From positions 1,488,001 through 1,552,000 of the forward strand of contig JAJHTX010000005.1 of the NCBI GenBank assembly GCA_032164295.1: DNA of 64,000 bases. Reading direction: 5' to 3'. Shown here in pieces: positions 47,823 to 60,426 of this stretch. The position numbers were made by a program, and so were the translations under genes. The notes under the pieces are model-generated. The model was not told the origin of the DNA. It saw only the letters and a program-made list of their open reading frames with translations, and made no database searches. Numbering within the stretch: the first letter of the stretch is position 1; every line of letters begins with the position of its first letter. This DNA comes from Inonotus obliquus. Lineage: Eukaryota > Basidiomycota > Agaricomycetes > Hymenochaetales > Hymenochaetaceae.

Positions 47823-50800
47823 TTACACATACAACCACCTTCCCCGCTGTTCAGCCCAGGTAGCAAAGTCATTCGAAGCGGCGTTCTCAAAGACAGAACG
47901 CAAGGATGAGGATTGGAGTTCGTTTTCTACAAATCCATTCCCAGGCGTTTCTGGTGGCGTCGCAGGTAAAGCGTATACGTTCGCATCATTATGATCGTTG
48001 GCGGCGTACGGCGAGAGTACGCCGACACCAGATCCACCGACTGATGTTAGATATGGCTCAAACCCGTCTGCCCGTAGTTCCGTCATCAGCTGCTTTAACT
48101 CGTCTTCCGAAAAACCTGGAGATGGTGGATGGAACGACACAAGTTAGAACCAGTACAGAGATGAAGGATGGAAGATGAGTCAGGAAGATGAAACATTCTT
48201 GGTTGTTGGTATGTGGATAGCGTTTCTTGAATGGCGAGACGATTACTCACCGTCAGGAACCAAAGTGACTGCGCAACCTCCACCTCCAGCGCCAGTTAGT
48301 TTGGTTTGGAGGTTGTAGCTCGCCGTCTTTGATTTGATCGCTTCCAGAGCAGGGTGAGACACGCCCAAATCACGAAGATGTGCGTGATTCTCGTTGATCA
48401 AACTCTGTAGAACTAAATCAAGTTCCGCGTCTACTGCACAGATAATCAACTGCATACCTCCAGACCCCTCAGTTGTTCCTCGCGTGGAAGATCCGTGTCG
48501 ACAAGTATCCGATGCGCCTCATCACTGATACTTTGGATTGCCTCCAAGAGGCCGCCAACATACTCGGGCTCCTACATAAATAGCGTGATAAGAACTTGCT
48601 CCGAAAATGCTTCTCTGATACTAACATTAACCTTCTTCAGAGCCACTCCGGCTACAAGCGCTTTTGTGTTTCTTGGCACTTTTGTGTCGATGAGCAAGAA
48701 TCTCAAAGATTTGAAGCTATTCGTTTTGTAAGTAGGCGTATGCGTATGGGAGATCGAGGCCGAAACGGGGAACATACCCTAGGATGGCTTCCATGCCACT
48801 CTTCCTCCCAAAGCCTGGGCGGGTATATGCAAGAGCGCCTCCAAAGACAGAGACACAATTATCAACGCCACTAGGATTACCGTGTAATACCTTCTCAGCA
48901 ACGAACGCCCACCGGTTGATTTCCTCTGCTACGTCCGTTGGAAGCGCTCGTCTTCCCTGATGACTTACGTGAACGTGACCAGGGTCCTCCGGACCGCTCG
49001 GCGGGATACTGGGAGCTGGACGAGGCGGTACCGAAATGCGCTTCAGAACTAGCAATAAGGCGCTCGCAGCGCAGGAGGAGAATGATGCGGAAGAGCCAAG
49101 TCCTGCTCCAACTGGTAAAGTGCTACGTGCGCTGAAGTGTAGAGCAGGACGAATATCGCCTGCAAGCGTCATGTATAGGTAAAGGAATGTCAGCGCTGCA
49201 TTACGCGCAGTAGGCACGTCGTGCTTCGATAGAGGAAGCGCCTGAGACGAAATCGCGTCAATGAGTTTCGGGTCCAGCGTGTCCGAATGATTTGAACCAG
49301 GTGGAATGTATGTTGCCGCATCCCACGGAAGGTCATCGATATTCCATTCATGACGATAATCTCCAAGGTCTGTAAAGTGAACAGAGACCTTGTTGTCCTT
49401 GCGAGGTGTGGTCAGACCATAGCATCGCAGATCTACTGAAGCTGCAAGCGCCGTCTGTTCATATCGCGAGTTAATCATACGTATCATGGTACAACCGAGA
49501 TTACTTACGACTCCATGTACGACTGCGTGTTCACCGAACAAGATAACCTTGCCAGGTGCACTCACGAACCATTCTCTTTCATCTTTGTGACGGCTTTCCG
49601 GCTCACTGAGAGCAAGTTTCTCCACCGCGCGACTGATCGTGCGACCTTCGCGTTTCAGGGAGGCACGGACATAATGATGGCCGTCGACACCCTGCTCGAG
49701 AGTGATAGCCCCTGCCTCAAGCAGTGCATGCTCGAGATCGTCAAGGAGATCATCAGGATCTTCAATGCCGACGCAAAGACGGATAAGGTCCTCTGGAAGA
49801 CCGCGTTCTGCCCGGGTAGCAGCGTCAATCGAAGCGTGCCTGAGAATAGCGAAAATAGATTAGACTGTGTTTAAGCTATGATTTTGATTCTGACTGAAAC
49901 GTACGACATGACGCAAGGCATGCTGATTAGTGAGTTTACGCAACCAAAGCTGACGCTGATACCCCAAAGGCGCGTCGCCCCAACGATGCGCTCGCTGAGT
50001 GCTTTGTCACCGGTCTCGAAACTGAGCACTGCACCTGCACCGTTTGCGATGCGTTCATGGACTTCACGGCGAGGATGATTCTTCAAACCTGGGTAATGGA
50101 CATTAAAGCCGAGCCGATCAAGCATAGTTGCGACGGCCATCGCGGAAGATTGTTGACGATCCATGCGCACAGCAAGCGTCTTCGTTCCACGCAAAAGGAG
50201 GAAAGAGTCAAACGGCGAAAGTCCATTACCGATAGAATTTATAGTAAACGCCATTTGCTGTAGTGCATGGTGTCAGTTTTCCGATCAAATCGAAAGAGGA
50301 GGGAAATTGCTAGTTCGAGGGATAATTCTTTACCTTTGCGAGATCATCGCGGTTGCAAGTGATCACACCGGCCATGAGATCATGATGTCCACTCAAGTAC
50401 TTTGTCGCACTATCATAGACGACATCTGCACCGTGTTCAAGTGGTCGCTGGAGGTAAGGGCTCATCATCGTGTTGTCGACTACGATGATGGCTCCAGGCG
50501 CCCGCTCCTTTACAAGTGAAGAAATCTTCGCAAGATCTGCAATTTTCAACAGCGGGTTCGTCGGACTCTCGAGCATGACCATTGCTGTTTTGCCCGCTTT
50601 CACGTACGGGATGATACTCTCGTCATTTGTGGTGTCGACGTGGTGCACAATAACTCCGCCATGAGACTTGAGGTAACTCAGAAGACGATTCGTCCCTCCA
50701 TACAAGTCATCACCCGCAATCACTTCGTCCCCAGGCTTCAGCAAACGAGTAATAACATCCATAGCAGCCATTCCGGACGATACGGAGAAAGCGTGCTCCG

Positions 50801-51107
50801 CCGAAGACATTTTGGCCAGGTGATGTTCTACAAAATGCGTCATCAGCACACACAGCCTGTATGCAACCAGACCTCAACAAAACTCACCAAGATGGCTCCT
50901 AGTCGGGTTTCCACTACGCGTATAGTCATACTGGCCTGAAACGCCCTTGAAAGTAGCCGTCTGGTAAATCGGTACAGAGCTAGCCGCATATTGATCCTTC
51001 ATGTCTGGATTCTCCACAGTTGCACATAACGTCGCAAAGCGATATGGCTTGCGCGGTGCCCGAGGCGATTCCGGGCCTGGTGTTGGGAGGTCAATGTTGG
51101 AGGTCAT
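47823..51107 (-). CDS. Apparent fusion: cystathionine beta-lyase joined to mevalonate kinase
   Basis: The minus-strand ATG at 51107 opens a fungal cystathionine beta-lyase: YRFATLCATVENPDMKDQY, SVPIYQTATFKGVSG, GDDLYGGTNRLLSYL, VVDNTMMSPYLQRPLEHGAD, and the PLP lysine in YDSATKYLSGHHDL. The usual C-terminus, RLCVGIEDPDDLLDDLEHAL, lies in an exon (49509-49839) that continues in the same frame. After about 44 linker residues it enters FVSAPGKVILFGEHAVVHG, the start of mevalonate kinase. The kinase is complete: GHMP motif STLPVGAGLGSSASFSS, NPSGVDN, and LTGAGGGGCAVTL, ending RGRWLYV at 47823. No stop and no in-frame ATG separate the two enzymes. One would make homocysteine from cystathionine; the other phosphorylates mevalonate in sterol/terpene synthesis. 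Two genes with a hidden kinase start remain possible. Confidence 0.82.
49509..49839 (-). other. Exon joining the two enzyme domains of the fusion gene
   Basis: A single 331-nt open exon. It enters with G completing a Ser codon (MS|HASIDAATRAERG of the lyase), runs through the lyase end, a polar linker, and leaves after VVHGV of mevalonate kinase at a GTAAGT donor. Frame arithmetic: the lyase codon starting at 49838 and the kinase codon starting at 49625 differ by a multiple of 3. All ATG triplets here are out of frame. Confidence 0.85.
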
Positions 51108-51542: not shown

Positions 51543-52529
51543 TCAAAACCATCCAGTCTTCGCGTTGAGCCGAAGTTCAGTAGTGGCTCCCGCGACTATC
51601 TTTAGACCTTCGCTCATTTGCGCAAGTTTCGCATTCCACCATTCAACCCGTTGGCGTGTAATCACTTCGCTAGACGGAAGCTCTGGGAAGTTCCTATACG
51701 ACCTTCCGTCATCGATATCTTTGTCCGGTATACTCCAACAGTGGAGCATATTTCCCACGCGAACTTTCCGAAGAGAGTTCACACTTCCCTCCGACCATCA
51801 ATAAAACAATCGGAAGGAAATGGGAGGAGATCTACTCACAAATCTTTCTCCAAAGCCTTAGGATCGTTGGCCTCGCAGACGTACAGTTGGGTAGTCAAGT
51901 CATCGTACGCCGTTTCACCTGGTTGCGCTTTCGGTACGTGGATGCAGACATGGAAATGTGCGGCTCGTTGGATTTCTGAAGTTATTCCATATCGGTCTGG
52001 TGCGATGGTGAGAAGTTCGGCATATCCATCTTTGTCGGTAGTAACTCGTCCACGCAAGGTGTACGTGCGAACATAGTAGTCGCCCGCTGAGTCAGCTTGC
52101 CACCAGTCAAGTTCTGCTCCTGCAACTGGATTCCCTTCTGGGGTAAGCACGCGAATGGTCGCAAGGAAGGGGTGAAACTCTGACAAAATGTTTAGTATCT
52201 ATGAGAGATCAGCATGAGTATGTTGAGCAGCCCACTTTTCAAGAGAGTTGCAGGAGCCATGATGGCCTTCCCGGTTTCAATCTGCCTATCCGGAGAACCA
52301 ATAACGTAGGCTGGTCCTTTACGTGTTTGTCAATACATGCAACCAAGGCATAGAGCATGCCACTGGGCTTACCTTCTAGATCAGCCTGCACATTCCGTTT
52401 CCCATAAGTGTTGCTCCAGACGAGGGGATTGTCATACGCAAGCTGCACCATCAGCATCCTGAATACACTCTTGATGAGTGTCAAATAGGAGACAGAGACA
52501 GTCGCAGGCTCCAAAGTCGAAGTGGACAT
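51543..52529 (-). CDS. Intradiol ring-cleavage dioxygenase (catechol/hydroxyquinol type)
   Basis: Minus-strand gene from the ATG at 52529 (MSTSTLEPATVSVSYL) with about four introns to a TGA at 51543-51545. Diagnostic pieces in order: LEGPAYVIGSPDRQIETG (compare the family GPFYVPGAP signature), VLTPEGNPVAGAELDWWQAD, YYVRTYTLRGRVTTDKDGY, DRYGI with a likely iron-ligand tyrosine, and AAHFHVCIHVP with the two histidine ligands (H-x-H). DLTTQLYVCEANDPKALEKD follows, then a C-terminal exon ending NAKTGWF. Enzymes of this family open catechol or hydroxyquinol between the hydroxyls using Fe(III), in aromatic or lignin-fragment degradation (family knowledge). The exact substrate is unknown. A disrupted tandem copy follows at 53382-59862. 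Confidence 0.85.
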
Positions 52530-53381
52530 AGCAGATTCGCAGGGTAGATGTGAGACGGGAGGACAGGGAAAGCAGAACCCAGGTATTCAGTATCGCGTCC
52601 AATAAGGACCTAGTATTTATGTAAATACCCGCCCGCTTCAGCGAGTGCACAAGCTCCTTCCGACTCCGGATCAGTCACATCGACCAGGAGCATGTAGTAG
52701 CTTGTCGCTTGCTGAAACGCGTTAGCTTCACTAAATGTCCGCAAATGAAACACACATAGAACATATATATCTATTCTCCGAGTCGGAGGGGCGTGCGCTG
52801 CGCAGCATGGGCAAACATGCTCCCGATGATCCTCCTAAGGTTCAAAGGTATTGAAAGCAATCAATTGAACTATTCAAGTAGCGGCCAATGATGTATCTGC
52901 ATCGTGCTCCTGATCAGAATAAGATTGATTGCAAGCAGATGAAGAGCCTGATGTTGTCGGTTCAGTTCAAGCTAAATTGATTGGAGATGATGGATAACAT
53001 AAAAACTGAGCTGACGGATGCTTCCGGTGGGCGACATCATCATGTGATCCGGGTCCTCGTCCTTTCCGTCCGTCCGCCGATCAAGTTCTCACTCACTCAA
53101 ATTCCAAGCACGCCAGCTCTTTCCTCAAGTAGCAGTATTTATATTTGAGACCACGAGAGATGGCGTTGGCTGTCCTTTTCGTTTTTCGGAGAGTACATAC
53201 GTAAGAAACTCACGATACACGTCTCACACACCTAGTCTCGTTTTCTTCGCCGAGTGGTGGGTCCATGTATTTTCAAATGATATCATACTTCCCCCAAATC
53301 GGGTGAGTGACATTACTTATGAGAGTCGTTGCAAAGCGCGAGATATACCTAAATACGAAAGAGACTTCAAAACAAAACCAT
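52530..53381. other. Dioxygenase promoter region and spacer
   Basis: The 5' flank of the dioxygenase. Parts of 52790-52970 resemble 60060-60200 upstream of the disrupted copy, so the duplication included promoter sequence. No separate gene is seen. Confidence 0.5.
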
Positions 53382-53646
53382 CCAGTCTTCGCGTTAAGCC
53401 GAAGTTCGGTAGTAGCTCCCGCGACCACAATCATCTGCGCAAGTTTCGCATTCCACTATTCACCCCGTTGGCGTGTATTCACGTCGCTAGACGGAAGTTC
53501 TTAAGTTCCTATACGGTCTTCCGTCATCGATATCTTTGTCCGGCATACTCCAACAATGGAACATATTAATATTCCCCACGCGTATTTTCCGAAGAGAGTT
53601 CACACTTTCCTCCGATCATCAACTTGAATATAACACTTAGGAAAGT

Positions 53647-53660
53647 AGTAAGATAATGTC
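53647..53660. repeat. LINE target-site duplication, 5' copy
   Basis: AGTAAGATAATGTC, identical to 59376-59389. The pre-insertion sequence continues TACTCATAAA, which aligns with the intact dioxygenase near 51831. Confidence 0.9.
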
Positions 53661-54955
53661 CTTCCTACCACTCGCACAACTGATGAACCAGGCCCAACAA
53701 AGCCGACAGACAGGAGCTAGCGCTCCCGTCGAGGCGGCCTTGGCACGTTTGTCAGCAGAAATTCAGACCCTCAACAACAAGTTTGCGGGCCTCCAACAAC
53801 AACAACAAGCCCGACCAACCCAGAACACTAGGCCGCTCCCCAGAACTTACAACATGGGGACTGCACCACCACAAGCACCAGCAGAGGCGGCGACGACGGG
53901 GACGACATACGCTCAAGCCGCCAGCACAGCCACAGCCGCACCATCCACCAGCCACCCAACCAATCCACCCCCATCCCTGGAACCGAATGCGCCAAAACAC
54001 AGGAAACTCCCCCCAATCACCACCAAGGCAAAGGACCCCACCCTGGTAATCACTTACAACCCCCCAATCCTGGCCAACAACCGCCCCACCGACTACCTAC
54101 TCAGCAAAGCTGCCAGAGACGTCGTGCAGTAGAGACGTCGTGCAGTCTCTGCCAACGGCCAGCAAGCTTCGCGTTCTAGCCACCAGATGGAATCCCAAGG
54201 GACATGCCATCATTACCTTCGCGGCAGGCAACGGCATCACCGAACAAATCGACCTCCAGGCACAGGCCATTGCAAGCCGACTGGTCAACACTACCTCTGA
54301 AGTCGAGGCGCGCAGGGTTGTCCTGCGCGCTACACTCAACATATCCATGGTACCTGTGCGCTACAACACAAAGGACCAAGCTTTCACTCAGGACGAGGTC
54401 CTGGCGGAGCTGAGAGCCAACCCCATCCTTCAACACATTAAACTAGCGACGACTCCCTACTACACCGCCAGACCAGAACGGCTGGCGGAGCAAGGTGAGC
54501 GCGCTCTGCTCACATGCCCAATCTCCATTACCTTCGACGATCCCAAGGGGGACGTCCGTGAGCGACTTATGAATAAGCCGCTCGTCTACCTCTTCGGGAG
54601 GAGGCTGAGACTGTCATACAGACACCCTCGCCCCCCCTTCACACAATGCACTAAGTGCCAAGCGCTGGGACACGTAGCTAAAGGCTGCAAATGAAACCCC
54701 CTATGCGCACACTGCAACCTGAATCACAGGACAGAGGACCACCGCGCTAAGTGCAGACTCTGCGCGAGTGAAGGCATACCCGCCGGCACAGACTGTCCCC
54801 ACCCTAAACTCTGCCATAACTGCCTAGGGCGCCACTCGGCCACAGACCCTACGTGCCCCAGACGCAAAAAGTACCAGTCTACGGCGCCTCTTATCATCAC
54901 CTCCTCAGCTAGCGAACCTGGCTCCGAAATCGAAATGAGCGAAGAAGATTTGTAA
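53656..54955 (+). pseudogene. LINE ORF1 (gag-like, zinc knuckles), broken twice
   Basis: The nucleic-acid-binding ORF1 of the retrotransposon. It begins MSFLPLAQLMNQAQQ with a short coiled-coil and Gln-rich region, then a Pro/Ala/Thr-rich region. The first break is a 16-bp tandem duplication at 54115-54146 that puts a TAG in frame. The second is a TGA at 54692-54694 inside the C-terminal cysteine knuckles (CTKCQALGHVAKGC before, then CAHCNLNHRTEDH and CHNCLGRHSATDPTC after). The final codons overlap ORF2 as TAATG. Its start codon is supplied by the target site. Confidence 0.85.
54115..54146. repeat. 16-bp tandem duplication breaking ORF1
   Basis: AGAGACGTCGTGCAGT occurs twice head to tail (54115-54130, 54131-54146). 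The first copy runs into TAG; without the second copy the ORF1 frame would be open across the site. Confidence 0.92.
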
Positions 54956-57900
54956 TGGTGTGGATCTACCAATGGAATGTAGGACGGCACAGAGCCGCCA
55001 TGGAGCAACTCATTGCTAACTTCGACCAAATCCCAATTAATCATAGACCCCTGCTAATACTAATCCAAGAACCACCGTGGTACCGAATCGGCATCACTCC
55101 ATCCCTAATAGATAAAGAGGGGGAGGAGGTCTATGGCCTCCCCAACCTCCCAGGATACACCGCTTGCCTACCTCCGGGCGCTCCAAAGGACCGCCCAAGA
55201 GTGGCCACTCTAGTATCCAAACTCCTCCCTTCGTCAGGGTGGACGATAGTGGGACCACTCTCTCATGGCACTGACGTGCTAACCATCCAAATACAAGGTA
55301 CTAATATCTGCAATTACTACGGCTGCCAACCACCAGACTCCAGACGCAGGGACAACCACCCTGAGGCGTACCCTGGGGAAACCTTCCTCTATAGCCTCCC
55401 CTTTAACCTAGCCTCTCAAACCATCTTTGCGGGAGACTTCAACCGCACGAGGGACAGCTGGACCTCCTTACCGGTCCGACTGTACCGAGACCGACAAAGC
55501 AAGAAACTGGACGACTTCTTCCAAGAGAATGCCCTCCAACCAGCCTTCGACCCAGACACTCCAACGTGCAGGGAGGCGAACAGCCTAATCGACATGATAT
55601 GGGTACCAACAACAACGGACGCCACGCAGATCCGCGACTCCTATGTAGTGGAATACACCAGACTCTCCAACCACGCCCTACTCAAATGGTCCCTCCAACT
55701 GGACCTCCCTGACGCGCCAGAATCCAGGCCACCACTAGATGAGTCAAAGAAGAAGGACTGGCTCGACATAGTGACGCCAGCCACAGTCAGACTCCTCGCA
55801 CGTCCTGCAGAGGACGCGGAGGAACTAGACTCCAGGGTCGAAAGACTCACGAAGGTGATGCGGGAAGCGGCCTTGCAGCTGTGCCCCGCAAAACCTACCA
55901 AACTCAAAACGGTGGACTGGTGGAATGACCACTGCCGCCAGGCCCTAAACGATCTGCGAGAGTGCCCCCCTTCCGAACGAAACGCTAAGGCCGCCGGCCT
56001 GAACACCTCGATTCGGAAGGCAAAAAGGGAGTTCTACGAAGAAAAAGTCTCTAATGCTAACCAATACAACGTTTGGAACTGGGCGAAGGTAGGCAGGGGC
56101 ATTCGTCCCATGCCAATACCGTCGCTCAGGACCAGGGACAGCTTCACACGAACAGACATGGAGAAAGGTGAATTGTTCCGCCAGACCTACTTCCCACCCA
56201 CACAAGCGGACCCCCCACCTCCAACCAACACCTGCGACAACAACAGCGAGCGGCGGTCACACCCCTTCACTAGGAAGGAGATGATGGACGCAATTCGACA
56301 CACGTCCAACCTCTCCGCTCCTGGCCTCTCAGAAATAGGCTACCCCCCACTCAAGTGGCTGCTGGCGGAATTGCCTAACGAGTTTCTCTCACTCTTCAAC
56401 GACTGCTTACGTCTAGAGCACCACCCGAAAACATGGCGAGCGGCGAAGGTAGTAATGATTCGCAAACCAAACAAGAAGGATCCTTTCGCGCCAAGGTCCT
56501 ACAGACCAATCACACTGGAGGAGACGCTCAGTAAAATCATGGAGAAGATGATAGCTAACCGTCTGCAATTCCTGGCGAACACAGAGAAATGGCTACCGCC
56601 GAATCAATTCGGCGGACGCCAGGACCACGCCGTTCACGACGCGGCCCTCTCACTAACTAACCTAGTGGAGACGGCATGGAGAAGGAACCTGAAGTGCTCG
56701 GCCCTAGCGGTCGACATTCAAGGTTTCTTCGACAAGGTCGAACCCACCAAGCTGAGGGAAACCCTGGACTCCCTAGGCTGCCCGACGGACACGAACGCAT
56801 GGATCTACTCCTTCATGACGAAGAGGGAAGTAGCCCTGTCTTTCGACGGCATCACCCTTGACCCCCAGCCCAAACCCGATGTAGAAACACTACAAGGCTC
56901 CCCCATCTCCCCCATCCTAGCCACCATCTATGCCAGAGAAGCCCTAGAAGCCGCACGTCGAGTCGCAAGGACAGAAATCATAGCGTACGTGGACGACCAC
57001 CTACTGGTAACCTGGTCTAGCGACTACGCCGAAAACTGCCGTGTACTGGCGAAGGCATGCAAACTCCTCCAAGACAGACTCTGCAGCCGCAACATGGACA
57101 TTGAGGCGGAGAAGTCAGACGTCATCCACTTCAGGCGACAACGAGACACCACTCCAGACGGTGCCGACTTAGTCGTCACACTGGAGGATGCAACGGTCAA
57201 GCCCCAATACCCCATGTGCTGGCTCGGCATCTGGTTCGACCCACACCTCAACTTCAGGGAACATACAGAGAGAATGAAGGCCAAAGCCTTCTCCACCCTA
57301 GCTGCCATGCGCCTCATCGCCAACACCCAGAGGGGGATGTCCCCTGAACTACTCCGCAGGCTGTACATCGCCTGCGTACAATCCATCCTCACCTGGGGAT
57401 CAACGGTATGGTACCACGGCAGTCGTCAAAAGACGATTGTCGCCTCCCTCCAGAAAGTACAAGACAGCGCCGCGAGGTGGATCCTTGGGGTCTACCGCGG
57501 CGCAAACAGTATAACTACAAATTTCCTTATTTCTCTCCCTCCCCTTAAATTTTCTCTAGAACTCTTGAAAACTAAAGCCGCCCTCAGACACTACCGTACA
57601 CCACATAACCATGGGCTAAGGCCACTTCCCGCTCTTCGTAAAAAACATATAGGTAATAGAAATAGTGTAATTTCCTTTTCTTTTAGAGACCGAGTGCCGA
57701 ATGCCCAACCAGTTCCCGCGTACATGCATGCCCCCTGGGAAGAACCTCTGGCCTTCTCCGAAGGACGAGTACACTTCCACACCCCACCCACACCGACAGA
57801 CTCCGACACACGCCAGGAATACATCCAAGCGGCGTTGGATCTGTCCGGTGACACTAGCCGCCTGCTAGTCTTCACGGACGGCTCAGTGAAAGCAACACAG

Positions 57901-58953
57901 GCACGCCGCAAAGCGGGCGCCTCCTCAGTCATCCTCTACGACGGCAACACTATCGCCACAAGAAAGATGGTGGCAGCCGCTCTAACCACAGCCACGGACT
58001 GCGAGATCATGGCGCTGGCAACTGCGCCAACCTGGACAGCGCGCCACCTCCCCACATCAGACACACCCCCGAGGGAAATACACTTCCTCTCAGACTCACT
58101 ACCGGCCCTCAACCTCCTCGAGAAATGGCAAAGCGCGCCAGGCGCGCACCGACTCCAGGAATGGAGGAAGGGAACTCAGACCCTGCTCGACGCCTTACCA
58201 ACTGTGCATATCCACTTCCACTGGTGCCCCGGCCACGCGGGCATCAGCGGCAGTGAGTTGGCAGATAGGTTGGCAAAGGAAGCGGCGAACCTCCCCCCAA
58301 CGAGCGAACTCCCCTCCACTGCCGCTCTGCTAGAGAAGGCAGTCGACAAACTCCTATCCTCCTGGAACGGCGAGATCAGCCGCTCCACAGACAACAGACC
58401 ACAGTACCTCAGCATCAACGGCCCTGCCTCGAGGAAACCCAGAAAACTACTGAAGCTCGCCCGGCGCCGAAAGGACATTGCACGCGTCGCCCAAGTACTA
58501 TGCAATGCAGGCCCGTTTGGCGGCTTCTTCAAGCGGCTCCCCAGGGAGTATCACCTACAACGCGGCATCACCATCCATTGTCGCTGGCACAACCACCCCC
58601 CATGGCCAGTACAATCCCCAGCACACATACTCGGCGGATGCGAGGTCCTGGCTAGGACGCTAAACTGGCCAGCCACCACGCGTCCGCCTGCACACTACAC
58701 CGAATGGGCCGAGGATAGAAACCTCGGACCCCTTGCGGACTGGCTGAAGGAAACCACACCTTTCTTCATCACGGAACGAGCCTCCGCCGAGGCCATAGCC
58801 TCGGCATACACGCGGATGGAAGAAGAGGGCCTGGACACTCGCGACGACCACATAGACTTAGGAATCGCACGCAACTACGCTCAAGAGGAACTGGGACCAG
58901 AGGCGGAGACGCCTCTGGAATGGGCACGGCAACTCACAAGATCAGATTCTTAA
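54955..58953 (+). CDS. LINE ORF2: endonuclease, reverse transcriptase and RNase H
   Basis: An uninterrupted frame of 1332 residues. An N-terminal APE-like endonuclease has IQEPPWYRIG and the GDFNRTRDSW motif. The reverse transcriptase (about residues 480-760) has AKVVMIRKPNKKD, RSYRPITLEETLSKIMEKM, CSALAVDIQGFFDKV, LQGSPISPILATIYA and the catalytic box AYVDDHLLV. The RNase H (about 960-1120) has LLVFTDGSVKA, CEIMAL, FLSDSLPAL and HWCPGHAGISGSELAD. Together they would nick target DNA, prime reverse transcription there and remove RNA. The frame starts on the TAATG shared with the ORF1 stop, suggesting coupled translation. No lesion is visible, so the enzyme may be active. Confidence 0.95.
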   Translation: MVWIYQWNVGRHRAAMEQLIANFDQIPINHRPLLILIQEPPWYRIGITPSLIDKEGEEVYGLPNLPGYTACLPPGAPKDRPRVATLVSKLLPSSGWTIVGPLSHGTDVLTIQIQGTNICNYYGCQPPDSRRRDNHPEAYPGETFLYSLPFNLASQTIFAGDFNRTRDSWTSLPVRLYRDRQSKKLDDFFQENALQPAFDPDTPTCREANSLIDMIWVPTTTDATQIRDSYVVEYTRLSNHALLKWSLQLDLPDAPESRPPLDESKKKDWLDIVTPATVRLLARPAEDAEELDSRVERLTKVMREAALQLCPAKPTKLKTVDWWNDHCRQALNDLRECPPSERNAKAAGLNTSIRKAKREFYEEKVSNANQYNVWNWAKVGRGIRPMPIPSLRTRDSFTRTDMEKGELFRQTYFPPTQADPPPPTNTCDNNSERRSHPFTRKEMMDAIRHTSNLSAPGLSEIGYPPLKWLLAELPNEFLSLFNDCLRLEHHPKTWRAAKVVMIRKPNKKDPFAPRSYRPITLEETLSKIMEKMIANRLQFLANTEKWLPPNQFGGRQDHAVHDAALSLTNLVETAWRRNLKCSALAVDIQGFFDKVEPTKLRETLDSLGCPTDTNAWIYSFMTKREVALSFDGITLDPQPKPDVETLQGSPISPILATIYAREALEAARRVARTEIIAYVDDHLLVTWSSDYAENCRVLAKACKLLQDRLCSRNMDIEAEKSDVIHFRRQRDTTPDGADLVVTLEDATVKPQYPMCWLGIWFDPHLNFREHTERMKAKAFSTLAAMRLIANTQRGMSPELLRRLYIACVQSILTWGSTVWYHGSRQKTIVASLQKVQDSAARWILGVYRGANSITTNFLISLPPLKFSLELLKTKAALRHYRTPHNHGLRPLPALRKKHIGNRNSVISFSFRDRVPNAQPVPAYMHAPWEEPLAFSEGRVHFHTPPTPTDSDTRQEYIQAALDLSGDTSRLLVFTDGSVKATQARRKAGASSVILYDGNTIATRKMVAAALTTATDCEIMALATAPTWTARHLPTSDTPPREIHFLSDSLPALNLLEKWQSAPGAHRLQEWRKGTQTLLDALPTVHIHFHWCPGHAGISGSELADRLAKEAANLPPTSELPSTAALLEKAVDKLLSSWNGEISRSTDNRPQYLSINGPASRKPRKLLKLARRRKDIARVAQVLCNAGPFGGFFKRLPREYHLQRGITIHCRWHNHPPWPVQSPAHILGGCEVLARTLNWPATTRPPAHYTEWAEDRNLGPLADWLKETTPFFITERASAEAIASAYTRMEEEGLDTRDDHIDLGIARNYAQEELGPEAETPLEWARQLTRSDS

Positions 58954-59346
58954 TTGTTTATGACTCAGTTATGTTTCCCTCCCCCCCGTTAATACTATTC
59001 CCCCCACACTCCTATCCTACCTGTTTCCCTTATTTTCTTACTTTCCATTTTTCCTCTAAGTCGTATGTTTATATGATTATGACCGGCCCTAAACAAACTT
59101 GACCGAAACGGGCAATTTTTAGTAAATAACTTTATTAGGCTTATCTACAGTATATACATTCAAAAATAGTTTCTGTTATTCCTTCTAATTCCCCTACCTC
59201 CCCAGCGTCGCGCCCTTTAGTCCTTTCTTTAGAGCACCATACTGCTACCTTTTTCTCTGCTTTTCTTACTTCACCACTCTTAGAGTTCACACCACCACGT
59301 AGATTTTGTCTGCCGCGCACTTGTAACTAGAATTACTGACGCGCGT

Positions 59347-59376
59347 AATAAATACATTTAAAAAAAAAAAAAAAAA
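59347..59376 (+). other. LINE polyadenylation signal and A-tail
   Basis: AATAAA at 59347-59352 is followed by a run of 17 A at 59360-59376, the template tail used in target-primed insertion. The last A may belong to the target duplication. Confidence 0.85.
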
Positions 59377-59389
59377 GTAAGATAATGTC
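59376..59389. repeat. LINE target-site duplication, 3' copy
   Basis: AGTAAGATAATGTC directly after the A-tail, identical to 53647-53660. The following TACTCATAAA continues the dioxygenase pseudogene. Confidence 0.9.
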
Positions 59390-59862
59390 TACTCATAAAA
59401 AACGTCTGAAGATTGTTAGCCTCACAGACGTACATACAGATGCGTAGTCAAGTCATCATACTTAGTTTCCCCTTCGTCCGCTTTCGGTGCGTGAACCCAA
59501 ACATGGAAATTCAGTTGGTGTATGCTGAGTCACGTACTGTACTTTTCAAAAGAGTTGTAGGAGCCATGACAGCCTTCCCTATTTCAATCTGCCTATCCGG
59601 AGAACCAATAACGTCAGTTGGTCCTCTAGATACATCTCAGTATCGATAACCAAGGCATAGAACGTGCGATGAGCGTACCTAGCAACTCAGCTTGTGCATT
59701 CCGTTTCCAATATATATCATGATAGCTCCGGACGAGCGGATTGTCATATACAAACTGCATTATGCATTATGTATTATCAATGTCCTAACTCCTAATTGCA
59801 CTTTTGAAGAGCGTCAGGTGGGACTCCGGAACAGTCATGGGTTCCAAGTTAGACGTTGACAT

Positions 59863-60426
59863 AGTAGCTTCGTAGGAGGAGAGGAAAGCAGAATTTATTC
59901 AGTGCTGTATCCAATCAGCATTGTTATTTATAAGCGCCAACTTAGACGCCTGGACTGGGATATTCCCCCAAGTGGTCACAACGCACCGCTGGTCGTCTGA
60001 TTGTCAATTGTCAATAAGATAGACGCGTCAGCTGAACAGACAACGGATCAGATCATATATACATCGGAGAGGAGCGTGGCAAGATCGCTGCGGACGAGGA
60101 CGCCTTGAAGGTATTCAATTCAACTGCAACCAATTGATGTATTCGCATTGTGGTGATAATAGGCCAAACATCGCAAGTTGATGAAGAGTTTGGTTTCGTC
60201 CAGTGCTTATTTCTTTGCTTGCCAGTGGATGATGAAGTTACGTAATAAAACACGGTGCTTGTCATCATGATCGGGTAATCCCGGCAAGGCAGATCATTCT
60301 CACGCTCACGCATCGTCCACTCTCATCTCCAGTTTCTCAAAATCTCCAGCTCACCCACCCTCTCCAACTCTTCTTACAAACTCCACTCCTTAATCTCTCC
60401 TCAAACCGACAGCAACGGGGAGAACA
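59863..60426. other. Pseudogene promoter and ATP20 5' flank
   Basis: Segments around 60060-60200 echo the promoter of the functional dioxygenase copy. From about 60310 a CT-rich leader precedes the ATP synthase subunit g start. No gene is seen. Confidence 0.5.

Follow-up and report, generated by a model that had tools for sequence, protein, structure and literature searches.

Fusions between a cystathionine beta-lyase and a mevalonate kinase are already known in basidiomycetes, having been described in 2012. In the part of their report available to us, Liu et al. 2012 found a metC-MVK fusion in 12 basidiomycetes, with Laccaria bicolor as the exception; the fused protein was about 886 amino acids (aa) long on average, was the only MVK homologue, and carried a 16-residue kinase insertion conserved in 7 species (PMC3342255). 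Likewise, in the accessible sections of Wilson et al. 2012, STR3 carries a mevalonate kinase region at its C-terminus in all the basidiomycetes examined, except Postia placenta (PMC3468542), and an STR3-kinase fusion is also mentioned for Lignosus in the excerpt consulted (PMC4129116). Neither an enzyme assay of the fused protein or of either half, nor an experiment on the reason for their joining, was found in the portions of the open-licence PMC literature examined.

Here, a gene of this kind is described from the chaga fungus Inonotus obliquus, within a window of 64,000 nucleotides (nt), the whole stretch of DNA analysed. The original prediction of a single reading frame holding both enzymes is confirmed: after splicing, nine exons on the minus strand form one open frame of 908 aa (Table 1), with the start codon at 51107 and the stop codon ending at 47823. 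All eight introns are of the GT-AG type and measure 53-135 nt, summing to 558 nt. The donor of intron 6 was set by comparison with relatives and the chaga record P0122, and lies six bases from its first placement. An earlier 906-residue version, two residues shorter, was the query for the TIGR01329 score and the whole-protein search for relatives, and the kinase-half query used in the genome and stand-alone searches carries the same two-residue difference from the 908-aa model. Intron 4 (49455-49508) is 54 nt long, in frame and free of stops, and would add 18 residues within the kinase if retained; retention of intron 7 (48405-48457) introduces a stop.

Table 1 Features of the fusion gene in the window
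Feature	Position	Strand	Basis
Whole fusion coding span	47823..51107	-	spliced model, 908 aa
Exon 1, lyase	50888..51107	-	spliced model
Exon 2, lyase, PLP-lysine motif SATKY	50334..50827	-	spliced model, alignment to lyase structure
Exon 3, lyase	49905..50257	-	spliced model
Exon 4, lyase end, linker, kinase start (SAPGKVILFGEH)	49509..49839	-	spliced model; frame conserved in relatives
Exon 5, kinase, GLGSSA and HGNPSGVD motifs	48778..49454	-	spliced model, alignment to kinase structures
Exon 6, kinase	48626..48716	-	corrected donor
Exon 7, kinase	48458..48571	-	spliced model
Exon 8, kinase, GAGGGG motif	48251..48404	-	spliced model
Exon 9, end of the kinase, C-terminal tail with GRWLYV as its last residues	47823..48115	-	spliced model

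The domains follow each other as cystathionine beta-lyase, linker and mevalonate kinase in the same frame, and exon 4 holds the junction as predicted: its lyase end matches Pfam PF01053 with 38.5 bits (unspliced frame), and the kinase motif SAPGKV begins at residue 449. The polar linker that had been proposed at about 44 residues is present, yet its length is here about 47 (residues 402-448). As had also been claimed, neither a stop nor an in-frame ATG lies between lyase and kinase, the nearest preceding Met being residue 355, within the lyase. In the other frames, ATGs located between the end of the lyase and the kinase motif lead into just 5-32 open codons. That the junction is a fusion rather than an opening by chance follows from conservation: chance is excluded because 169 of the 173 sequences compared (the window and 172 relatives) keep the linker in frame, while the flanking-motif pattern went unmatched in four (P0027, P0053, P0101 and P0268); a stricter first pattern had used 113 of 121.

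Upstream of the gene on the same strand, an open frame at 51836-52198 matches PF00775, a domain of intradiol-type dioxygenases, with 44.7 bits. The region 52001-60000 displays marked strand asymmetry, with GC skews of -0.141 and -0.162 and AT skews of 0.158 and 0.139, and includes a 1346-codon open frame on the plus strand (54913-58953).

Both domains had been described as complete with catalytic residues, and both stand up to curated models. Against TIGR01329 (eukaryotic cystathionine beta-lyase; cut-off 487.5), the lyase half reaches 538.1 bits; its closest solved structure is Arabidopsis cystathionine beta-lyase 1ibj, and the SATKY, DNTM and YTRSGNPTR motifs are present in the alignment. 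The PLP-lysine motif is kept in 172 of the 173 sequences. The lyase half looks functional and is predicted to cleave cystathionine to homocysteine. Across the genome, the fusion gene is the sole gene best matching cystathionine beta-lyase; the next locus in the TIGR01329 search (L025) reaches 281.4 bits, under the cut-off, and scores better with cystathionine gamma-synthase models. Besides L025, whose best match is cystathionine gamma-synthase, one other strong PLP-enzyme locus best matches OAH sulfhydrylase (L026), and four weaker loci best match distant family members; among the matches listed, none of these six exceeds any cut-off. The enzyme names of these PLP loci, and of the GHMP loci below, are best matches, and several of the loci were scored as single exons.

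With TIGR00549 (mevalonate kinase; cut-off 163.05), the kinase half reaches 208.9 bits, and it aligns most closely with the solved structures 2r3v and 1kvk, which we take to be human and rat mevalonate kinase, respectively. The Lys, Ser, Glu and Asp aligned to the catalytic positions of 1kvk, presumably Lys13, Ser146, Glu193 and Asp204 in the rat enzyme, are identical, and the alignment places extra residues around PGHVHVSHQGRRA in the kinase half compared with the human and rat enzymes. Over the 173 sequences, a SAPGK-type motif is found in 171, GLGSSA in all 173 and the Glu/Asp pattern in 150, leaving 23 without a pattern match. Like the lyase, the kinase half looks functional, and its motifs predict phosphorylation of mevalonate. 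The C-terminal GRWLYV (exon 9, 47823-48115) places a Trp near the C-terminus; a loose pattern for such a Trp matches 166 of the 172 fused relatives, and also 10 of the 19 stand-alone kinases. When the kinase-half query was run against the 36 Mb assembly (30 contigs), all five matches fell within the fusion locus, and no second mevalonate kinase locus was found in the genome with this query. Four other GHMP loci best match diphosphomevalonate decarboxylase, phosphomevalonate kinase, homoserine kinase and galactokinase; the decarboxylase and homoserine kinase loci are above their own cut-offs and the other two below. Among PDB sequences (60 of 112 matches listed), the best stretch is confined to one half each.

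A search of relatives for proteins with both domains, which had been suggested as a check, recovered them: the PLP-enzyme and GHMP kinase domains occur together in all 120 relatives listed of 1102 found, a figure that overstates exclusiveness, as the whole-protein and distant-profile searches admit only 0.55-1.75 times the query length and so exclude single-domain enzymes. In Sanghuangporus baumii P0001, 835 of 908 residues are identical and the linker is nearly the same. A profile of the more distant fused sequences brings in Sporisorium, Ustilago, Exobasidium, Calocera, Dacryopinax and Tulasnella (best 120 of 4451 matches), genera among which are smut-lineage fungi (Ustilaginomycotina) and Dacrymycetes. 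In the search with the kinase half, the best 120 of 6828 matches showed no complete kinase standing alone among the entries with a basidiomycete name, a count that leaves aside many unnamed entries that are exon pieces. The basidiomycete-named entries were fused or partial models (Fibroporia, Candolleomyces, Ceratobasidium, Serendipita, Rhodofomes, Lentinula, Schizophyllum and Moniliophthora among others) or the chaga fragment discussed below, and the stand-alone kinases among the matches listed (Umbelopsis, ascomycetes and others) share 39-43% identity.

In the 169 sequences with the linker frame, the linker, counted between the close of GIEDxxDL and SAPGK, spans 44-144 residues (median 58). 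Of these sequences, 101 share an ISRAVEKL-like stretch, suggesting that the linker may be more than a spacer in Agaricomycetes. In the chaga protein, ISRAVEKLA occupies residues 424-432 (exon 4) and is predicted, with low confidence, to form a helix; the stretch is absent from the smut-lineage sequences shown in the linker listing. The model predicted for P0001 (mean pLDDT 73.6, pTM 0.54) lacks the certainty needed to tell whether the halves touch, and linker residues 419-438 fall under pLDDT 50. One alignment of relatives comprised 63 hand-picked sequences, 58 from the 120 whole-protein matches and 5 from 119 new kinase-half matches. In a kinase tree of 49 hand-picked sequences (50 were chosen, and P0192, lacking the motif, was left out), 31 fused and 18 stand-alone fungal kinases are separated by one branch (100/97). 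This topology fits a single fusion event, which would have preceded the separation of Agaricomycotina and Ustilaginomycotina, the sample lying outside Pucciniomycotina and Tremellomycetes.

Evidence on transcripts comes from relatives and from chaga itself. Among 15 hand-picked relatives, the contig extends beyond the coding frame by 109-188 nt in five, 280-395 nt in five and at least 888 nt in five. Because the contigs of the first five are too short for the introns of this gene (558 nt), they are probably spliced transcripts that keep the fused frame intact, provided that the genes of those species have a similar number of introns. In addition, a fused unigene is reported for the Pleurocybella transcriptome in the text available (PMC3720577). 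The deposited Inonotus obliquus 'mevalonate kinase' P0122 (308 aa) is identical to the kinase half at all 294 residues compared; it begins at an ATG in intron 4, ends in intron 7, and is devoid of both SAPGKVILFGEH and GAGGGG. It matches a transcript retaining parts of introns 4 and 7 and appears to be an incompletely spliced piece of the fusion gene. A coding sequence of 927 nt on a 1872-nt transcript, given in the consulted part of a chaga transcriptome study (PMC6770048), agrees with it in length, and we infer that the two correspond. As far as its text was available, a chaga genome paper appears to give mevalonate kinase two genes (PMC9020118); one locus was found in the present assembly. 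Work on chaga terpenoids is affected, as the deposited 'mevalonate kinase' looks like a fragment without needed motifs.

Taken together, the gene is very probably a basidiomycete CBL-MVK ('metC-MVK') fusion, transcribed into one mRNA and translated into one two-domain protein. Two tandem genes would offer another account, with the lyase ending near the linker and the kinase starting from a hidden 5' exon or an internal start, or with both read from a bicistronic mRNA. The only chaga kinase record, the transcript-derived P0122, does represent the kinase part alone, no chaga transcript or protein crossing the junction was seen, and a Met occurs somewhere in the linker in 58 of 169 sequences and within its last 20 residues in 24. 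Yet the chaga frame has no ATG between residue 355 and the kinase motif, and no internal start is conserved, since 145 of the 169 sequences are free of Met over the final 20 residues of the linker. The start of P0122 in intron 4, downstream of the missing SAPGKVILFGEH, gives no working kinase start, and the linker letters themselves are conserved, as the recurrent ISRAVEKL-like stretch illustrates. Tandem genes are therefore very unlikely.

It could also be speculated that the two enzymes are translated jointly and separated later, as would happen if the linker were cleaved; its variable length and its low-confidence residues 419-438 would be compatible with such processing. The stretch recurring in Agaricomycetes suggests a linker with a role beyond spacing, and no cleavage site was identified, although no systematic search was made; separation after translation appears very unlikely as well. 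Finally, a sequencing or assembly error could join two frames, as one base fewer ahead of the kinase motif would leave two overlapping frames. Such an error, foreseen in the original prediction as a refutation, is contradicted by the nearly identical linker of P0001 and the frame kept across relatives, and is so improbable that it may be set aside.

The product of the CBL-MVK fusion would thus consist of an STR3-type cystathionine beta-lyase, a short linker and an ERG12-type mevalonate kinase. The two enzymes have no common intermediate; direct channelling between the halves is therefore not expected, and the fusion alone does not demonstrate the suggested coupling of sulfur amino-acid synthesis to the sterol/terpene pathway. 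The halves may act largely independently, and the fusion may have been kept as both are needed housekeeping enzymes that would be made in fixed, equal proportion. Its retention could plausibly reflect that methyl groups and isoprenoids are needed together. A stronger version, in which the fusion is a functional tether and one regulated protein sets the supply of both, with lyase tetramers and kinase dimers possibly brought into a larger assembly via the linker stretch, seems unlikely. If it were true, the lyase would feed homocysteine, methionine and S-adenosylmethionine, the last of which would be needed alongside isoprenoid units in sterol C-24 methylation, ubiquinone synthesis and the methylation of prenylated proteins. 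If both halves work, a single gene supplies the methionine and the sterol/terpenoid routes across a very large fungal group, and a single mutation or change in expression would touch both.

Compared with the described systems, the chaga gene shares with the metC-MVK of Liu et al. 2012 the domain order, a similar length (about 886 versus 908 aa) and the status of sole mevalonate kinase, and no substantive difference emerged from the sections of that paper at hand. With STR3 of Wilson et al. 2012, as far as the seen text goes, it shares the architecture, about 450 residues beyond the lyase and the lack of a stand-alone kinase. Postia placenta, the exception in the seen part of that study, is represented here among the whole-protein relatives by the fused entry P0022 (909 aa, both domains), and the exception of 2012 may be a gene-model gap. 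Neither this entry nor the reading of P0122 as a kinase fragment appears in the portions of the literature examined. In the ascomycete STR3 and ERG12, the human and rat mevalonate kinases and Arabidopsis 1ibj, each half finds a counterpart that aligns over its full length with the catalytic motifs kept; unlike the chaga fusion, these counterparts are separate polypeptides.
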